Positions 1,828 through 53,919 of a DNA stretch of 64,000 nt are shown here, one piece after another (position 1 is the stretch's first letter; every line of letters starts with the position of its first letter). The DNA comes from Solibacteraceae bacterium (lineage in GTDB: Bacteria > Acidobacteriota > Terriglobia > Bryobacterales > Bryobacteraceae). Location of the stretch: assembly GCA_021324015.1 (NCBI GenBank), contig JAJPJX010000177.1, forward strand, positions 1-64,000, given 5' to 3'. The notes beneath the pieces were generated by a model. That model had not been told where the DNA came from. It did no database searches and was given only the letters and a program-made list of their open reading frames with translations. The position numbers and the translations under genes are program-made.

Positions 1828-4800
1828 CTAATAAAAATCGTGGGAGTCGGCGGCTGCGCCGGCCTCCAGCGGCGACACCCGTTCCGCCTTTACCGAAATT
1901 ACGTGGTCCTGATTCTGGAGGTGGCCATCGATGAGCAGAAACGGCTCGCCGACCACCACCAGGCGGTATCGCTGAAACACATCCGGGGTGAGGATGGCGT
2001 TGAGGATACCGGTTTCGTCCTCCATGCTCAGAAAGACGAAGCCCTTGGCCGTTCCCGGCCGCTGCCGCACGATCACCGCTCCGGCGACGCGCACCCGCCG
2101 GCCGTCGGGAATGCGCGGCAATTCGGCGGCGCAGGTGACGCCCAGGGCGCGCAGTTCCGCGCGGCGATGCGCCAGGGGGTGCCGCCCGATGGTCACGCCC
2201 GTGCCCCGGAAATCCGCCGCCAGGCGCTCGCCGGTGGTCATGCGCGCGAGCGGCGAATCCGCCGCGGCCTCGTGCAACGGCGCGAGCAGCGGCCCCGCCC
2301 GCCGCGCGGCGCGGGCAGCGTGCCACAGGGCGTCGCGGCGATGCATCCCCTCGAGCGCGTTCAACGCACCCACTTCGGCCAGGCGCGTCATCTCGTCTTT
2401 GCGCAATTCCGGCACGCGCAGCGCCAGGTCGTCCAGGCCGGTGAATGGCGCCCGCTCCCGCGCGCGCACGAGGGCCTGCCCCGCCTCTTCCCGCAGCCCC
2501 TTGACGTAGCGCAGCCCCAGCCGCAGGCATTTTGCTTCCAGCGTGCAGCTCCACTCCGAACGCGTCACGTCCGCCGGCAGCACCCGCAGGCCATGCCGCT
2601 GCGCGTCCTTGATCAACACCGCGGGATGATAGAACCCCAGCGGCTGGTTGTTCAGCATAGCGGCCGTGAACGCCGCCAGGAAATGACACTTCAAATACGC
2701 GCTGGCATAGGCGATGAGCGCGAAGCTGGCCGCGTGCGATTCCGGAAAACCGTATAGGGCGAACGAGGTGATGGCCTGGACGATGGTATTCTGCGCCTCG
2801 CCGGTGATGCCCTTCTGCTGCATGCCCGCGCGCAGCTTCTCCTCGATGGCGCGCATGCGCTTCTCCGAGCGCTTGAACCCCATGGCGCGCCGCAACTCTT
2901 CCGCTTCCCCGCCCGTGAAGCCCGCCACGGTCATGGCGATGCGCAGCAATTGTTCCTGGAACAGCGGCACACCCAGCGTGCGCCGCAGCACCGGCTCGAG
3001 CGAGGGATGCAGGTAATCCACCGGCTCCCGGCCCTGCCGCCGGCGCAGGTAGGGATGCACCATCTTGCCCACGATGGGCCCCGGCCGGATGATGGCCACC
3101 TGCACCACGATGTCGTAGAAGCGCCGCGGGCGCAGGCGCGGCAGACAGGACATCTGCGCGCGGCTCTCCACCTGGAACATGCCGATGGTGTCGGCCTGTT
3201 CGAGCGCGCGGTACACCGCCGCATCGTCCGGCGGCAGATGCGCCAGGTCCACTTCCTCCCCGTAGTGCCGGCGGATCAGATCGAGCGACTCCTCGAGCAC
3301 CGCCATCATGCCCAGCCCCAGCAGGTCCACCTTGATGATCCCCATGTCGGCGCAGTCTTCCTTGTCCCACTGCACCACCACGCGGCCGGGCATGGTGGCC
3401 GGCTCCAGCGGCACGATCGCATCCAGTTGCCCCTGGCAGATCACCATGCCGCCGGAGTGCTGTCCCAGGTGCCGCGGCAGATCCTGCACGGCTTCGTAGA
3501 GCTCCAGGAACTTGCGCACCCGCGGATGGTTCAGGTCCAGGCCCGCGTCGCGGAACTGCCGCGCGGTGGTGTCCTTGGGATCCTTCCACTCCCAGGTGTG
3601 CGCCAGGCCCGCCAGGCGGTCCAGCGTGGTCACCTCGAAGCCCAAGGCCTTGCCCACTTCCCGCGCGGCGGAGCGGCCGCGATAGGTGATCACATTGGCC
3701 GTCATGGCCGCGCCCAGCTTCCCGAAGCGCTGGTAGACGTACTGGATAACGCGCTCGCGCTGCTCCCCGCTGGGCAGGTCCAGGTCGATGTCCGGCCACT
3801 CTCCGCGCTCCTCGGAAAGAAAGCGCTCGAACAGCAGTTCCATGCCCACCGGATCCACCGCCGTGATGCCCAGCGAGTAGCACACGGCGCTGTTGGCCGC
3901 CGAGCCGCGCCCTTGCGCCAGGATGTGCTGCGCGCGGCAGAAATTCACGATGTCCCAGACGATCAGGAAATAGCCCTCCAGGTGGAGCTTCTCGATCAAA
4001 TCCAGCTCGCGCTCCACCTGCCGCCGCGCCTTTTCGTGGTAAGGCTGGTAGCGCCGGCGCGCCCCCGCTTCGGTGACTTTGCGCAGGTAGGAAGCCATGG
4101 TCTCGCCCGGCGGCGCGGGATAGCGCGGGAACTCGTATCCCAGGTCGGCCAGGGTGAATTCCAGGCGCGCGGAGATCTCCGCCGTGCGCGCCACCGCCTC
4201 CGGCAGGTCCGCGAACAGCCGTTGCATCTCCGCCGCGGATTTCAGGTGCCGCTCGCAATTCCGCGCCAGCAGGCGCCCGGCGGTATCGAGCGTCACCTTG
4301 TGCCGCACGCAGGTGAGCACGTCCAGCACCTCGCGCTGCTGCGGCAAGGCGTGGGACACGCCGTTGGTGGCCACGACCGGCACGCCCAGCCGCCGCGCCT
4401 GCTCCACGACCGCCTGATTGCGCGCCTCTTCCTCCCGGTCCAGGTGGCGCTGCAATTCGGCGTAGAGGCGGCCCTTGCCGAAAATATCGAGCAGGCGCTC
4501 GTCCACCTCCGGCGTGATGCAGATCAGGCCGCGGGCGTGCTCCGCCAGTTCGTCGAGCGTGGCCGCTCCCTCGCCCTTCCGAGCCCGCAGCTTCATGCGG
4601 GTGATCAGGCGGCACAGATTCTGATATCCCGCGCGGTTTTCGGCCAGCAGAGGCAAGGGCTGCCGGTCTCCCTCCAGGGTGATCTCCGCGCCGACGTGCG
4701 CCCGGATCCCCGCCTTTTTGGCCGCCATGTGGAACCGCGGCGCGCCGTAGACCCCGTCGCGGTCGAGCAACGCCATAGCCGGCAGATCCAGCCGGGCGCA

Positions 4801-4884
4801 GGCCTCCACCAGTTCCTCGGGCGGGGAGGCCCCCTGGAGGAAGCTGAAGGCCGAGCGCGCATGCAGTTCCACGTACTCAGTCAT
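1828..4884 (-). CDS. dnaE2: Error-prone DNA polymerase III alpha subunit DnaE2 (ImuC)
   Basis: The polymerase of the ImuA-ImuB-DnaE2 mutasome, used for translesion synthesis and induced mutagenesis. The predicted protein has 1018 residues, normal for DnaE2 and shorter than replicative DnaE (about 1160). The N-terminal PHP domain starts YVELHARSAFSFL, with a degenerate histidine pattern. The catalytic acidic motif PDIDLD supplies Asp365 and Asp367. Helix-hairpin-helix and OB-fold regions follow (VRVAGAVIVRQRPGTAKG, near the C-terminus). The ATG at 4884 was chosen because MTEYVELH aligns with the family N-terminus; longer frames run into imuB. Its first bases overlap the imuB stop by 8 nt, so translation is probably coupled. 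It is last in the imuA-imuB-dnaE2 operon. The third catalytic acid was not located with certainty. Confidence 0.95.
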   Translation of the reverse strand: MTEYVELHARSAFSFLQGASPPEELVEACARLDLPAMALLDRDGVYGAPRFHMAAKKAGIRAHVGAEITLEGDRQPLPLLAENRAGYQNLCRLITRMKLRARKGEGAATLDELAEHARGLICITPEVDERLLDIFGKGRLYAELQRHLDREEEARNQAVVEQARRLGVPVVATNGVSHALPQQREVLDVLTCVRHKVTLDTAGRLLARNCERHLKSAAEMQRLFADLPEAVARTAEISARLEFTLADLGYEFPRYPAPPGETMASYLRKVTEAGARRRYQPYHEKARRQVERELDLIEKLHLEGYFLIVWDIVNFCRAQHILAQGRGSAANSAVCYSLGITAVDPVGMELLFERFLSEERGEWPDIDLDLPSGEQRERVIQYVYQRFGKLGAAMTANVITYRGRSAAREVGKALGFEVTTLDRLAGLAHTWEWKDPKDTTARQFRDAGLDLNHPRVRKFLELYEAVQDLPRHLGQHSGGMVICQGQLDAIVPLEPATMPGRVVVQWDKEDCADMGIIKVDLLGLGMMAVLEESLDLIRRHYGEEVDLAHLPPDDAAVYRALEQADTIGMFQVESRAQMSCLPRLRPRRFYDIVVQVAIIRPGPIVGKMVHPYLRRRQGREPVDYLHPSLEPVLRRTLGVPLFQEQLLRIAMTVAGFTGGEAEELRRAMGFKRSEKRMRAIEEKLRAGMQQKGITGEAQNTIVQAITSFALYGFPESHAASFALIAYASAYLKCHFLAAFTAAMLNNQPLGFYHPAVLIKDAQRHGLRVLPADVTRSEWSCTLEAKCLRLGLRYVKGLREEAGQALVRARERAPFTGLDDLALRVPELRKDEMTRLAEVGALNALEGMHRRDALWHAARAARRAGPLLAPLHEAAADSPLARMTTGERLAADFRGTGVTIGRHPLAHRRAELRALGVTCAAELPRIPDGRRVRVAGAVIVRQRPGTAKGFVFLSMEDETGILNAILTPDVFQRYRLVVVGEPFLLIDGHLQNQDHVISVKAERVSPLEAGAAADSHDFY

Positions 4885-6145
4885 AGCTGCCCTCCAGGAA
4901 CCAGTTATGCCGCTCGCAGTACAGCCGGTGGAGGGAGCCGTCGCCCAGCGCCACGTCCCATTCGTCGCGCGCCCAGGGATCGGCGCGCCACCAGTCGCCG
5001 GAACTCCGCCACGGACCGGCACAGGCAGCCACCTCGCCGCACACCTCTTCCGCCTGCACATACGTGGGCTGCCCCGCCCGCAGCCGCACCCGCGCCGGGC
5101 GAGGGGGCCGGAACACCCGGAAGGCCAGGGACACCGCTCCCTGACGGTCGCGGCTCAGTTCCCTTTGCAAAAGTTGGCGATTTTCTGCCATGAAGCGGGT
5201 TATGCGGAAGGCTCCCGGGCGGTGCGTATCCAGCAATTCCGCCGAGCCGACATGCTCCTCCCCCACCAGCGCCGCCACCCGCGCCAGCGTCAGCTCGAGC
5301 TTTTCCGGCTCCGGCGCCAGCGGCACAAACAGCCCGTTCTGCGCCGCGCGCGTCGGCGCCGGCTGCGCCTCGAGCTCCACGCGCACGATGGCCGCGGCCG
5401 GAGGATGCGCGCTCAAATCCAGTTGCAGCAGCTTCAGGAAAGCCTTGGGATCCAGCATGGCGACCGGCAGCCGCAGCGCGCGCGCATGCTCGCTGCCGTC
5501 CGCCAGCCTCAGCCGCAGGCGCAGTTCGTGGGCCGCCAGGCCGCGGGATGCCAGGCGCGCGCAAAGCTCCTGCAAAAGGCGCGCCAGCAGGAACAGGAGC
5601 GGCTCCAGCAGTTCCAGCGGATCTTCCAGTTCCATCTCCGCGGCGAAGCGCGGCGGCTCTTCCACCGGCGTCAGCGGGCGCTGCGCTTCGCCGCGCGCCA
5701 GGAGCCGCAGCCGCACGCCTTCCGGCCCCAGCCGCTCCGCCAGCCCGATTTCCGGCAGGCGGGCCAGGTCGCGAAACCGCCGGATGCCCCAGCGCTCCAG
5801 CGTCTCGGCCAGTTCCGGCGAAGGCGCCAGCAGTTGGACCGGCAGGCTCTCCAGGAACTTGGCCTCATCGCCGTAGGGAATCACGCTGAGGCCGGCGAAG
5901 CCCCGCGCGGCGCACACGGCCGCATCCGGATTCGAGGCCACCGCCACGTTCACACGCAAGCCGGCCTCTCCGGCGTGCCGCGCGATGGCTGAGGCGATCT
6001 CCTGCGGCAGCCCGAAGATGCGGTCCAGGCCGCCGGCATCCAGCACTACCGTATCGGGCGCGGTCTGCTCCACCAGCGGCGAAAAGGTCTGGGCGCAATC
6101 CAGCAGCCCGGCGGGATTTTCCGGAGCGTGCAGGCACGCAAACAT
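4877..6145 (-). CDS. imuB: ImuB, catalytically inactive Y-family polymerase homologue
   Basis: In known systems ImuB is the clamp-binding hub that brings ImuA and DnaE2 to damaged DNA. The protein (422 residues) has the DinB/UmuC-like N-terminal fold: SPLVEQTAPDTVVLDAGG near residues 22-41 stands where active Y-family enzymes carry the SxDE catalytic motif, and that motif is absent here. The little-finger-like region and the C-terminal ImuB signature (GPWRSSGDWW ... WDVALGDGSLHRLY ... EGSYD) are intact. It starts 3 nt after the imuA stop and overlaps dnaE2 by 8 nt, which indicates one operon. Unusual point: residues 324-337 (about 5134-5177) are encoded by a copy of the dispersed palindromic repeat and read ELSRDRQGAV, an apparent in-frame insertion in a linker. 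The protein is somewhat shorter than many ImuB proteins (about 480-500). Confidence 0.93.
   Translation of the reverse strand: MFACLHAPENPAGLLDCAQTFSPLVEQTAPDTVVLDAGGLDRIFGLPQEIASAIARHAGEAGLRVNVAVASNPDAAVCAARGFAGLSVIPYGDEAKFLESLPVQLLAPSPELAETLERWGIRRFRDLARLPEIGLAERLGPEGVRLRLLARGEAQRPLTPVEEPPRFAAEMELEDPLELLEPLLFLLARLLQELCARLASRGLAAHELRLRLRLADGSEHARALRLPVAMLDPKAFLKLLQLDLSAHPPAAAIVRVELEAQPAPTRAAQNGLFVPLAPEPEKLELTLARVAALVGEEHVGSAELLDTHRPGAFRITRFMAENRQLLQRELSRDRQGAVSLAFRVFRPPRPARVRLRAGQPTYVQAEEVCGEVAACAGPWRSSGDWWRADPWARDEWDVALGDGSLHRLYCERHNWFLEGSYD
5134..5177. repeat. Dispersed palindromic repeat, copy 2, inside the imuB coding sequence
   Basis: The 23-bp core (ccgctccct, ga, cggtcgcggctc) at 5134-5156 is followed by agttccctttgcaaaagttgg (through 5177, with a base of variation). 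The same extended arrangement occurs at 29244-29286, where the tail reads ggttccgctggcaaaagttgg with small differences. A shared unit of about 44 bp, one copy intergenic and one inside a gene, supports insertion of a repeat unit rather than chance similarity. The insertion keeps the imuB frame open and adds the peptide ELSRDRQGAV. Confidence 0.8.
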
Positions 6146-6148
6146 GGC

Positions 6149-6826
6149 TCACCCCCAGACGCGCGCCTCGAACCAGGCGCGCGCCGCGCGCACCGGCTTG
6201 CGCCGCTCGGCCGCCGCCCGCAGGCCGCGCAGCAGCCGGGAACAGCCAGCCGCGCCGGACCACAGCACCGCTTCCCGGCGCAGTTCCAGCACCAGCGACG
6301 CGCAAGTCTTGGCCAGCGGCTGCCGTTCCAGGGCCAGCAACACCGTGGGCGTGTGCTCCACCGCGCGGCGCAGGCGAAACCAGGAGGTCAGGGAAATCCG
6401 CCGCGCGATCTCGACCGGGGTGTCGCCCAGGTCCAGCGCCACCAGCCCGAAGCCGCCGCCCTGCACCAGCAGATCGGCGGCCTTGAGCGCGTGTTCGGCG
6501 CGGCCGCCGCAGCGCACCCAGAGCAGCCGTGCCAGGTCCACGCCCGCCGCGGCCGCCGCAACCGGGTCGAAGGTATCGTCCGTATCCACCAGGGCACAGA
6601 CCTCCTCCCGCACCGCCACCTGGGCCATCACGGCATACAACAGGCAGGTGCGCCCCGAAGACACCGGCCCGCAGACCTCGGTGAGGCAGCCCCGCGGCAG
6701 CCCCCCAACCAGCGCATCCACCTCCGGAATGCCCGTGGGCAGGAGTTCCGGAGCAGGCCGGGCCTGCCATTCCAGAGGGGATCCCAGGACGGACGCGAGC
6801 TGTTCACGGAGCGCTGCGGAGGGCAT
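6149..6826 (-). CDS. imuA: ImuA, RecA-like protein of the mutagenesis cassette
   Basis: A 225-residue RecA-superfamily protein that acts with ImuB and DnaE2. The sequence shows LPTGIPEVDALVGGLPRG (residues 29-46), typical of RecA/ImuA N-termini, and a Walker-A-like GPVSSGRT at 53-60 in which arginine replaces the usual lysine, as expected for a degenerate ImuA P-loop. The strands VCALVDTDDTFDP and GLVALDLGDTP follow the RecA-core order, and the RecA C-terminal domain is missing. It is first in the operon, 3 nt before imuB. No strong Shine-Dalgarno sequence precedes the ATG. Upstream lie a perfect TTGACA and a phased direct repeat that may be the regulatory site. The cassette position makes the call firm although ImuA proteins diverge widely. 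Confidence 0.9.
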   Translation of the reverse strand: MPSAALREQLASVLGSPLEWQARPAPELLPTGIPEVDALVGGLPRGCLTEVCGPVSSGRTCLLYAVMAQVAVREEVCALVDTDDTFDPVAAAAAGVDLARLLWVRCGGRAEHALKAADLLVQGGGFGLVALDLGDTPVEIARRISLTSWFRLRRAVEHTPTVLLALERQPLAKTCASLVLELRREAVLWSGAAGCSRLLRGLRAAAERRKPVRAARAWFEARVWG

Positions 6827-14467: not shown

Positions 14468-14490
14468 CCGCTCCCTTACGGTCGCGGCTC
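14468..14490. repeat. Dispersed palindromic repeat, copy 3, between mutL and the TolC-like gene
   Basis: The 23-bp core matches the consensus (ccgctccct, ta, cggtcgcggctc). It lies downstream of the TolC-like stop at 14501 and upstream of mutL at 14431, in the only sizeable gap of that stretch, and could mark the end of the export operon transcript. Confidence 0.75.
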
Positions 14491-29210: not shown

Positions 29211-29243
29211 AGCGGTTTTGGATCAGGATGGCCTGTGTGTACA

Positions 29244-29382
29244 TGCTCCCTCCCGGTCGCGGCTCGGTTCCGCTGGCAAAAGTTGGGTGAGAACCCCGCG
29301 TGCCCGGATAATTTCCTGCCACAAAAACGTCACAATGCTCGTGTTTGCACCATGAGACCGAGCCGCGACCGTGAGGGAGCGG
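29244..29382. repeat. Pair of inverted dispersed repeats (copies 4 and 5), REPIN-like
   Basis: Copy 4 (29244-29266, extended to 29286) and copy 5 (29360-29382) are in opposite orientation with about 90 bases between, so the whole can fold into one long hairpin. Copy 4 shares the extended tail with the imuB copy. The pair sits between two convergent genes (stops at 29210 and 29399), the usual place for REP doublets. The rest of this gap has no frame or RNA signal. Confidence 0.75.
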
Positions 29383-29398
29383 TCTTTGCCTCCGACTG

Positions 29399-50830: not shown

Positions 50831-53800
50831 TTACGGCGCGATGGCCACTGTCAGGTTCTGCTGGCTCGAGGCGTTCCCCACCGTCACCACCACCGGCTGG
50901 TTGCCCGCGGTGACGCTCGCCGGCACCACGGCGTTCACCTGGAACACGCCGGCCACCACGCCGGGCACCGCGCCGAAATAGCGGATGTCCGTGGGAGCCA
51001 CGCTGACGCCCCCGATGCTCACGGCATACCCGAGGTGCGGTTTGGGGTAGGTGCTGGACGCCACCAGTCCGTCCACCCCGGGTGGATCCGTCTGGCCTTC
51101 GCCCGTGCCGAACAGCACGATGATGTCGCCCGGATGGGCGGGGTTGCTCGACGAATTGGGGGTCCCATCCTGGTTATAGATGGCGCCCTGCCCGCGGCCG
51201 GTGTAATCCGCCGAGAAAAGCCCCGGCGCCGACGGGTTCACGTTCACCGTGATGGGCGCGGAAGACTGCCCCCCATACTGCGCCACCACCTGCACCGTGC
51301 TTTGTCCGGCCACCTCGTAAGGCACAATGCCGTTCACCTGCGTGGCCGAGGCATAGGTGATGGGCGCCAGCGTGTTGTTGAACAGCACCCGCGCCCCGCC
51401 GCTGTTGGTGTCCAGCAACTGGCCCGAGGAGCCGAACGTCGCGCCGGCAGGATTCTGCGGCCCGATCCCGGAGCCGAAGGCGGCAAACACCATACCCGGG
51501 GAAACCGCCCCCGGCGCAAAGCTGGCGGCGTTGGCCAGCGCGGCCAGCGCGATGGCCGCGGCGGAGCCCGTTGAGAAGCCCGCATAGCGGGCCGCGAAAC
51601 TGTGGCCGTGGACGCGCCCCAAGGCGGTGCCTTTGATCGGCGAAAACGCGCTCTGGAAGGCGCCCTTGGTGACCGGGAAGTTGCCGGACATGGTCGAGCC
51701 GCTCACGTACACGTTCCCGGACGTGTCAATGGCCATGCCGGCGATCAGGTCGTCTCCGTTCCCGCCCAGGTACGTGCCGTACTTCATCGCGTTGCCGGCC
51801 GGGGTGAGCTGCACCACGAAGCCGTCCCCAAGCTGCTCGAAGGCGTTCTGCCCGCCGCTGCCGCCGAACGTTTTCTGCGCTGCGTCGGCGCTGAGCGGAA
51901 AATCGGGCGAGTTCGTCTGGCCCGCCACGTACACGTTTCCGCCGGCATCCACGGCGATTGCCGCGCCCGTGTCGTCCCCCTTGCCGCCCAGGAAGGTCGA
52001 AAACACGAGCCCCGACAGATCCGGCTTGAGCTTGGCTACGAAGGCGTCCCCCAGCAATTCGTCCACGCCGCTGGCCGGCGAATACGGGCCGTTGTGCTTG
52101 CTTTGCAGCACGCCCTGGGTCAAGGGGAAGTCGTGGTAGGAAGTCGTGCAGCCGGTCACGTACACGTTGGCCGAGGCGTCCAGGGCCAGTGCCGCGATGG
52201 CGTCATCGCCCGTCCCGCCCAGGTAGGTGGCGGCCAGCAGCTTCGAGCCGTCCGCGCTGAGCTTGGCCACGAAGCCGTCGCCCAGGTTGAAGAAGACGTT
52301 GTTGATGGTGTCCGGGCCGCCGTACCTGGTCTGGGAAGCGCCCGCCGTCACCGGAAAATCCGGCGAGAGCGTGTACCCGGCGATATACGCGAAGCCGTTG
52401 GCGTCCACGGCGATGGCCAGAGGCGCATCGTCCAGCCGCCCGCCGATGTAGGTGCCGTAAATCAGTTGTGCGGCCGGGGTGGCCGCCGCCGGGTTCAGCT
52501 TAACCACGAAGGCGTCGCCGGCGATGAACGCCTGGAAGTTGTGCGGGTCGGGCAGCGTGGGCTCGCCGCCGCTGCCCGCCAGGTCCGCCTGGTACGCGTT
52601 GGCGCTTATCGGGAAGTTGTTCCGTGAGAGCGTAGTTCCGGTGACGTACACCATGCCCGAGGCATCCACGGCGATGGCCGTGCCGGCGTCATCCTGGGTG
52701 CCGCCCAGGTACGTGCCGTACAGCAACTGGCTGCCCTGCGGGTTGAGTTCCGCGACGAAGGCATCGCCGGTGATCAGGCGTACATTCCCTCCAGAACCGC
52801 CGAATTTCGCCTGGAGGGCGTTCTTTACCGGGAAGTTATCGGAATTCGTGCAGCCGGTAACCCAGGCATTCCCGGAGGTATCCACGGCCAGGCCCATGGC
52901 GATGTCGTCTCCCCTGCCGCCCAGGTAGGTAATGTAGACCGGGGTCCCGGAGGGGCTGAACTTGGCCACGAAGGCGTCGCCGGTCATGAAGTTCACGGTC
53001 TGTCCGCCGTAGGCCGACTGGGATACGCCGCTGGTCACGGGCAGGTCCTGTGACGTGGTGTAGCCGGCGACGTACATATTTCCGGAAGAATCCGCGGTGA
53101 CGGCGCGGGCCGCGTCGTTGCCGGTGCCGCCCAGGTAGGTCGCAAAGCTGAGCGCCGGGTCGATCACTAGCGTGCGCTGCCGGTCGTACGCCCCGAGCGC
53201 GAAGGCCACCGTTCGCTTGCCCACCAGCCGAAAGCGGCCTGCCACCTCCCGGCGCTCCCCGGCAATGGTCTGATAGACCACCGGCTTCTCCCAGCGCGCC
53301 TCGCCCGCCGGCGTGGAGACCAGCAGGCTGCCGCCGGGCTCCAGGCGCACCCCGTCCGCGCCCTCCAGCCGGAATCGTATGCGGTCCGGATCCGCGCCCG
53401 GCCGGACCAGGAAGTCGTACTCCAGCGTTCCCCCCGCGCCGTAGAAGGCCAGGTCCACGCCCTGGTACACGCCGCGGTAGGTGACCCGCCCGTAGGAGTC
53501 GACGCCGGCCAACCACCCGGAGGGATCTTGACCCCGGAGATAGGTGGTGCGGACGGCCAGCGGATCGGAAGGCTCCAGCCGCGCGCCGCGATTCGCCCCT
53601 ATCAGGTTCATGCGGATGCGCGCAGACGTGCGCCGCGACAGATCGCTCCAGAACAGCGCGGAGCCCGAGGGCTCGAGCGCCAGGGCATAGTTCGGGCCGC
53701 GGGCCACAAACCGGGTAGACGGGGACGCCTGGCCGCGATTCTCCTCAAACCGCAGCGGCAGCCTTTCCAGAAACGCCGGAGCCCGCACTGCCGCCGGCGC

Positions 53801-53896: not shown

Positions 53897-53919
53897 GAGC
53901 CGCGACCGTGAGGGAGCGG
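53897..53919. repeat. Dispersed palindromic repeat, copy 6
   Basis: The reverse-orientation core (gagccgcgaccg, tg, agggagcgg) occurs between the divergent SBBP and GH78 genes. No extended tail is seen at this copy. Being upstream of both genes it is not a terminator here; the adjacent sequence has no clear promoter. The 204-base gap otherwise holds no frame. Confidence 0.75.

Follow-up and report, generated by a model that had tools for sequence, protein, structure and literature searches.

A Dispersed Repeat in the ImuB Linker of a Solibacteraceae Bacterium and Recurrent Repeats in the Same Linker of Its Relatives

The imuB Locus and Its Repeat

The window analyzed here is a stretch of 64,000 nt from a contig of a Solibacteraceae bacterium, with a coding share of 0.887. 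On its minus strand lies a gene (4877–6145) for a protein of 422 residues of the catalytically inactive Y-family type, which matches Pfam IMS and IMS_C. The name ImuB was assigned from context, as the gene adjoins an imuA-like gene (6149–6826, minus strand) and a dnaE2-like gene (1828–4884, minus strand), the start of the latter overlapping the end of imuB. In a study of mycobacterial ImuB, the protein is divided into a clamp motif (residues 352–356), an ImuA-binding RecA-NT (360–387), a linker (388–421), and an ImuB-C (422–525), and the two parts joined by the linker both contact ImuA (PMC11791113). The same segment order can be read in our minus-strand gene. A putative clamp-motif-like QNGLF (residue 269 on) and a putative RecA-NT-like segment (278–315), named from their order and likeness to mycobacterial ImuB, occupy 5201–5341; by the same comparison, the predicted linker (residues ~316–340) occupies 5126–5200, followed by the conserved C-terminal domain (residues 341–422; 4880–5125). 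Many residues of this domain are invariant, and the gene therefore does not look decayed.

Judged by this order of features, the repeat studied here sits in the linker between the RecA-NT-like segment and the C-terminal domain. It consists of a 27-nt arm (5133–5159, plus strand, antisense to imuB) around a core at 5136–5156, and of a tail (5160–5177, plus strand) that sequence comparison and a scoring rule assign to the type, here called B, of a copy at 29245. Positions 5134–5177 are in frame and cover residues 323–338 of 422 (RQLLQRELSRDRQGAV), the imuB frame stays open throughout, and arm and tail together account for ~16 of some 25 linker residues. A preliminary description of this DNA had already placed the unit in frame inside imuB, which we confirm, and had assigned to it the peptide ELSRDRQGAV; this peptide is indeed encoded, by the arm, and the repeat-derived part is longer, at 16 residues. 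The same description had called the unit palindromic, which does not hold for this copy: it consists of one arm plus tail and folds no better than shuffled sequences (z −0.94 for the plus and −1.15 for the minus strand). A hairpin at imuB was thus ruled out; strong folding needs two arms, and the imuB copy, although from a palindromic family, has just one. In an AlphaFold2 model built from 51 sequences (mean pLDDT 87.0), pLDDT falls below 50 at residues 320–331 and 333–335, as well as at 268–279 and 382–387, which supports the earlier suggestion of a possibly neutral insert, the linker being flexible. None of the same-genus genomes gave an empty site for the imuB copy.

A Dispersed Repeat Family

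The 21-nt core, GCTCCCTNACGGTCGCGGCTC, is present exactly at 5136–5156 and defines a dispersed family. At up to three mismatches, five matches were found in the window against 0.04 expected, and 128 places (58 forward, 70 reverse) in the 8.2-Mb genome of this bacterium against 2 for a reversed-pattern control, so that the unit is the dispersed repeat it had been taken for. At up to two mismatches, the core was observed in 36 of 61 genomes (own genome included), with 1 to 305 copies each, while the reversed pattern gave a single match across all 61. Of the 128 places in the own genome, 103 distinct copies were read. Their arm usually reads ACC-core-GGT; after it come a middle and the inverted arm, or else a different tail. 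Under one scoring rule, a partner arm lies no more than 90 nt away in 16 of these 103 listed copies, 9 carry the type B tail seen at 5134 and 29245, 13 carry a type A tail without a partner, and the remaining 65 fit no class; by the same rule, a partner arm accompanies 21 of 39 copies sampled from six other genomes. Complete two-armed copies measure ~61 or 81 nt, judged from how far apart their paired cores lie, and the two-armed element, typed as a consensus, folds far better than shuffles (z −13.5).

Within the window, the copy at 29245–29286 (plus strand) shares both core and tail with the imuB copy (86% identity between 5136–5177 and 29245–29286) and has an inverted partner arm at 29360–29380; the interval 29240–29386 reaches a folding z of −6.35 against shuffles. 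This copy is intergenic, as previously noted for 29244–29286, since it lies between predicted genes ending at ~29207 and ~29402. Core matches also mark a copy at a gene edge (14470–14490, plus strand) and one at 53897–53917 (minus strand) that fails the two-sided coding test for an in-frame gene context. In addition, seven direct repeats of ~90 nt, ~225 nt apart, were seen at 51686–53140 inside one long minus-strand gene, which probably encodes a repeat-domain protein.

The several repeats involved are presumably mobile or once mobile. Y1_Tnp genes were found in 17 of 17 genomes with at least 20 cores and in 10 of 25 without a core, and core copy number correlates with Y1_Tnp gene number (Spearman 0.58, 61 genomes), a link that genome size or family membership alone might explain. 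Despite this co-occurrence, the core lies near a Y1_Tnp gene in 1 of the 30 loci read, and in none of the own genome, so that we name no mobilizer.

Copies Inside Other Genes

To score copies as lying within genes, a codon model was trained on the window, and a copy had to keep the frame open across the element and to have coding-like sequence on either side. Almost all copies of the family that survive are outside genes. Among the 103 copies listed from the own genome, two are in frame inside genes: the imuB copy and one in a TopB-RecQ-like fusion. The genome-wide search suggested earlier thus gave one further in-frame copy among those listed. In this fusion (L097, contig C3 of the own genome, near 85408), the core lies in a linker and encodes EPRPSGSG. 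Among the 39 copies sampled from six repeat-rich genomes, two passed a strict in-gene cut and five a looser one, the five being both arms in an O-antigen-ligase-like ORF (L390) and single entries in a glutamate-synthase-like ORF (L398), L405, and L394, the last probably upstream of the true start. L405 is RNase E/G-like, and its core-derived sequence forms part of a ~25-residue unit that occurs three times over within a low-complexity stretch. L097, L390, L398, and L405 were named by eye. As further ORFs in the own and other genomes carry such inserts, imuB is not the sole gene to do so. In-gene copies are rare in the family as counted (2 of the 103 listed). The imuB insert is nevertheless no isolated case: this or other repeats occupy the same linker in several relatives, and in-frame REPs, dnaE2 included, are documented (PMC3733652).

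Repeats in the ImuB Linkers of Relatives

In all, 156 ImuB loci were collected from the fetched part of 167 matching genomes of a family taken as Bryobacteraceae, with a few sequences from outside it, and 138 distinct loci were retained after removal of 18 duplicates. Several of the duplicates are identical to named Bryobacterales or Candidatus Solibacter MAGs, on which the choice of family rests. Two linkers were dropped, L147 (masked by N) and L196 (too short), which left 136 usable. A quick tree of 134 sequences was built with the linker left out and with L147, L190, L194, and L196 dropped.

The preliminary description had reasoned that a segment conserved in ImuB proteins without the repeat would be ordinary coding sequence. 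The comparison showed no such conservation: 27 of the 28 readable among the 29 first relatives lack the core, the exception being a degenerate copy in L136 and the unreadable one being L147, and 131 of all 136 usable linkers are free of it. The core, at up to two mismatches, is present in five linkers, antisense in L121 (the own genome), L136, and L160 and sense in L192 and L242, and it requires five changes on the linker-free tree; the genomes that carry it in ImuB include G225, G241, and G257. Elsewhere in the same ImuB ORFs, 1535 windows matched in length were all without the core, the best having 5 mismatches. In L160, both arms are present and make up nearly the whole 25-residue linker. 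The core is read in three frames, as SRDR[QE]GAV, LPYGRGS, and APLQSRL (the second arm of L160), and thus no single peptide is required.

Seven linkers beyond these five carry other palindromes. Inverted repeats of the GGGGACAG type occur in six (L122, L123, L124, L132, L152, and L162; four changes on the tree), and L249 has a 23-bp stem of TGTGGGGCAGGC. In genome G001, AAGGGGACAGACGCATTTT is matched, with two mismatches allowed, by the two arms in ImuB and nowhere else. L136 combines its degenerate core with stretches resembling other repeats in a linker of 72 residues. The 12 repeat-bearing linkers, a set assembled after looking, have a median length of 27.5 residues against 22 for the 124 others (P 3e-4); the others span 12–45 residues, a range that L136 exceeds, while L192 (22) and L242 (23) are of ordinary length. 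Weaker remnants (L158, L163, L164, L172, and L188) were left out of the 12, as were L153, L155, L167, L171, L176, and L197, whose repeat-like peptides we take to be ones that recur in other acidobacterial proteins. Decayed remnants of repeats exist among the relatives, and the linkers of relatives without repeats are unrelated in sequence. The ImuB linker is variable, and it is a recurrent landing site for repeats.

Repeats were also seen around the linker. The core lies just downstream of imuB in L122, L144, L174, L232, and L237, between imuB and the dnaE2 match in L122 and L174, and GGGGACAG repeats take this position in L124. At L187 / L201 (G192), a 25-bp inverted repeat (TGTGGGGCGGACC...) stands where ImuB residues 1–64 should be, and ImuB homology begins at residue 65; the N-terminus may be disrupted there.

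Controls

In total, ~518 kb of coding sequence examined as controls contained no copy of the core. Within the same loci, it was not found in 113 imuA segments (51 kb) or 83 dnaE2 segments (72 kb), nor was it present in 50 MutL (101 kb) or 50 DnaX ORFs (78 kb), each set drawn as best-scoring loci, 30 + 20 from repeat-rich or ImuB-positive genomes, or in 28 DinB ORFs (39 kb), which represent 28 of the 30 best-scoring loci. Linkers make up 2.6% of the pooled bases, and the placement of all five cores in linkers has a P of 1.3e-8 if bases are treated as equal. Compared per protein with MutL, DnaX, and DinB, the core alone falls short of significance (P 0.061), and the 12 repeat-bearing linkers, picked after looking, give P 4e-4, or 0.003 with an 18-bp DnaX stem included among the repeats. 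Perfect stems of at least 12 bp outside the linker count against our reading of the linker as a recurrent site: they occur in 2 MutL, 3 DnaX (one being the 18-bp stem), 3 imuA, and 9 ImuB ORFs, and among the last, those of L124, L167, and L197 are upstream of the likely start and that of L187 is a 25-bp stem near the N-terminus. No GGGGACAG-type repeat is among these stems; single GGGGACAG motifs were found in one MutL and three DinB ORFs.

Origin and Persistence of the Inserts

ImuB is needed mainly after DNA damage, as established for the protein in other organisms. We propose, at a probability of roughly 0.65, that several repeats, mobile now or in the past, insert at many places and that copies survive in the disordered linker of this conditionally needed protein through tolerance. 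Under this model, several short palindromic repeat families would insert around these genomes, and the linker would accept almost any open stretch of some 18–35 residues; in-frame insertions could therefore persist in a protein that is called upon mainly after damage, and would later be trimmed or decay. Arrival would have been by transposition, and tolerance, rather than targeting or benefit, would be the cause of survival. The copies in the TopB-RecQ-like and RNase E/G-like ORFs, which likewise lie in linker-like stretches, support this model, and the several frames and unrelated repeat types argue against a required peptide. On the other side, variable regions exist in MutL and DnaX too, and 50 ORFs of each yielded no core; tolerance alone must consequently lean on the dispensability of ImuB. 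DinB is dispensable in general, and the 28 DinB ORFs without a core, although a small sample, count against tolerance as well. Nor was an empty site or a target duplication observed.

Other explanations have to be weighed against this one. That ordinary ImuB coding sequence resembles the repeat by chance is very improbable: the open frame is all that speaks for it, whereas the exact 21-nt core (0.04 matches expected in the window at up to three mismatches), the tail in common with the 29245 copy, and the absence of the peptide from relatives' linkers without core DNA contradict it. Conserved ImuB sequence or chance resemblance was accordingly rejected on the exact core and the core-free linkers of relatives. 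It is somewhat more conceivable, if still unlikely, that linker DNA is a preferred insertion site, for instance because a relic repeat attracts further ones by nesting. The composite 72-residue linker of L136, the pair of AAGGGGACAGACGCATTTT arms confined to ImuB in G001, and the repeats adjoining imuB in other loci would fit such targeting, but the inserts vary in type, orientation, and frame, and the linkers of repeat-free relatives are unrelated.

Slightly more doubtful again is a benefit, in which inserts adjust the reach of the linker or the imuB-dnaE2 transcript, hence how often damage leads to mutation, and selection retains them. Repeat-bearing linkers are longer (medians 27.5 and 22, P 3e-4), complete two-armed copies such as that of L160 could form an mRNA hairpin, and in mycobacteria the linker joins two ImuA-contacting parts (PMC11791113). 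Against a benefit stand the varying frame and peptide, the window copy that folds no better than shuffles, the ordinary lengths of L192 and L242, and the decayed remnants. We hold it similarly doubtful that the linker is an evolutionary tuning site, at which successive selfish repeats would be captured because a changed reach or transcript adjusts damage-induced mutagenesis; if so, part of the mutasome hub would have been written by repeats in many lineages independently.

The case shows how parasitic DNA turns into protein. One short linker of a mutagenesis hub bearing unrelated repeats in several genera amounts to a natural replicate experiment, which allows tolerance, targeting, and usefulness to be tested against one another, and an effect of the inserts, if there is one, would bear on how mutation rates evolve.

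Comparison with Known Repeat Systems

In-frame repeats in bacterial genes are already known from REPs and from Rickettsia palindromic elements (RPEs). In one report, many in-frame REPs are in repair genes, dnaE2 among them, and two recB genes carry REPs at about the same site (PMC3733652). Like REPs of the GTAG/CGTC super-families, the present family is short, of high copy number (128 places), and mostly intergenic (2 of the 103 listed copies in genes). The GTAG/CGTC tag, however, is absent as a fixed end; in the 103 copies, read by eye, ACGG is preceded by differing bases, and several tails exist, GGTAGC among them. A REP unit of 20–40 bp is itself a palindrome, unlike the imuB arm with its tail (z about −1), since strong folding here takes two arms. 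GTAG REPs have a linked RAYT gene; for the present family, Y1_Tnp co-occurs with the core, and the two lie close together in 1 of the 30 loci read.

RPEs, which are short and palindromic, are described as occurring in frame within unrelated genes (PMC10969869, PMC3733652), at a length of ~150 bp and with nearly half of one set in genes (PMC10969869). In-frame insertion into unrelated genes is also seen here, in imuB, the TopB-RecQ-like fusion, and ORFs of other genomes; by that description, the two differ in length (complete copies ~61 or 81 nt here) and in the share within genes (2 of the 103 own-genome copies listed). The terminal inverted repeats of MITEs (15–30 bp) are matched by two-armed copies (16 of 103 listed in the own genome, 21 of 39 elsewhere), and complete copies have the same short middle between inverted arms. 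MITEs are 70–300 bp long, complete copies here ~61 or 81 nt, and many of our copies are one-armed.

A text search of the open-access literature gave no paper with PDGRGSV, and open-access papers naming both imuB and palindromic concern other subjects, to go by their titles and the beginnings of their abstracts. The Candidatus Solibacter genome paper counts many short repeats, this family not being among them in the parts seen (PMC3174227). As tested, the family behaves like in-frame REPs and RPEs but fails the REP tag and self-folding features. What is new, as far as open-access literature searches show, is that one linker has been invaded repeatedly, in different genera, by three or more types of repeat.
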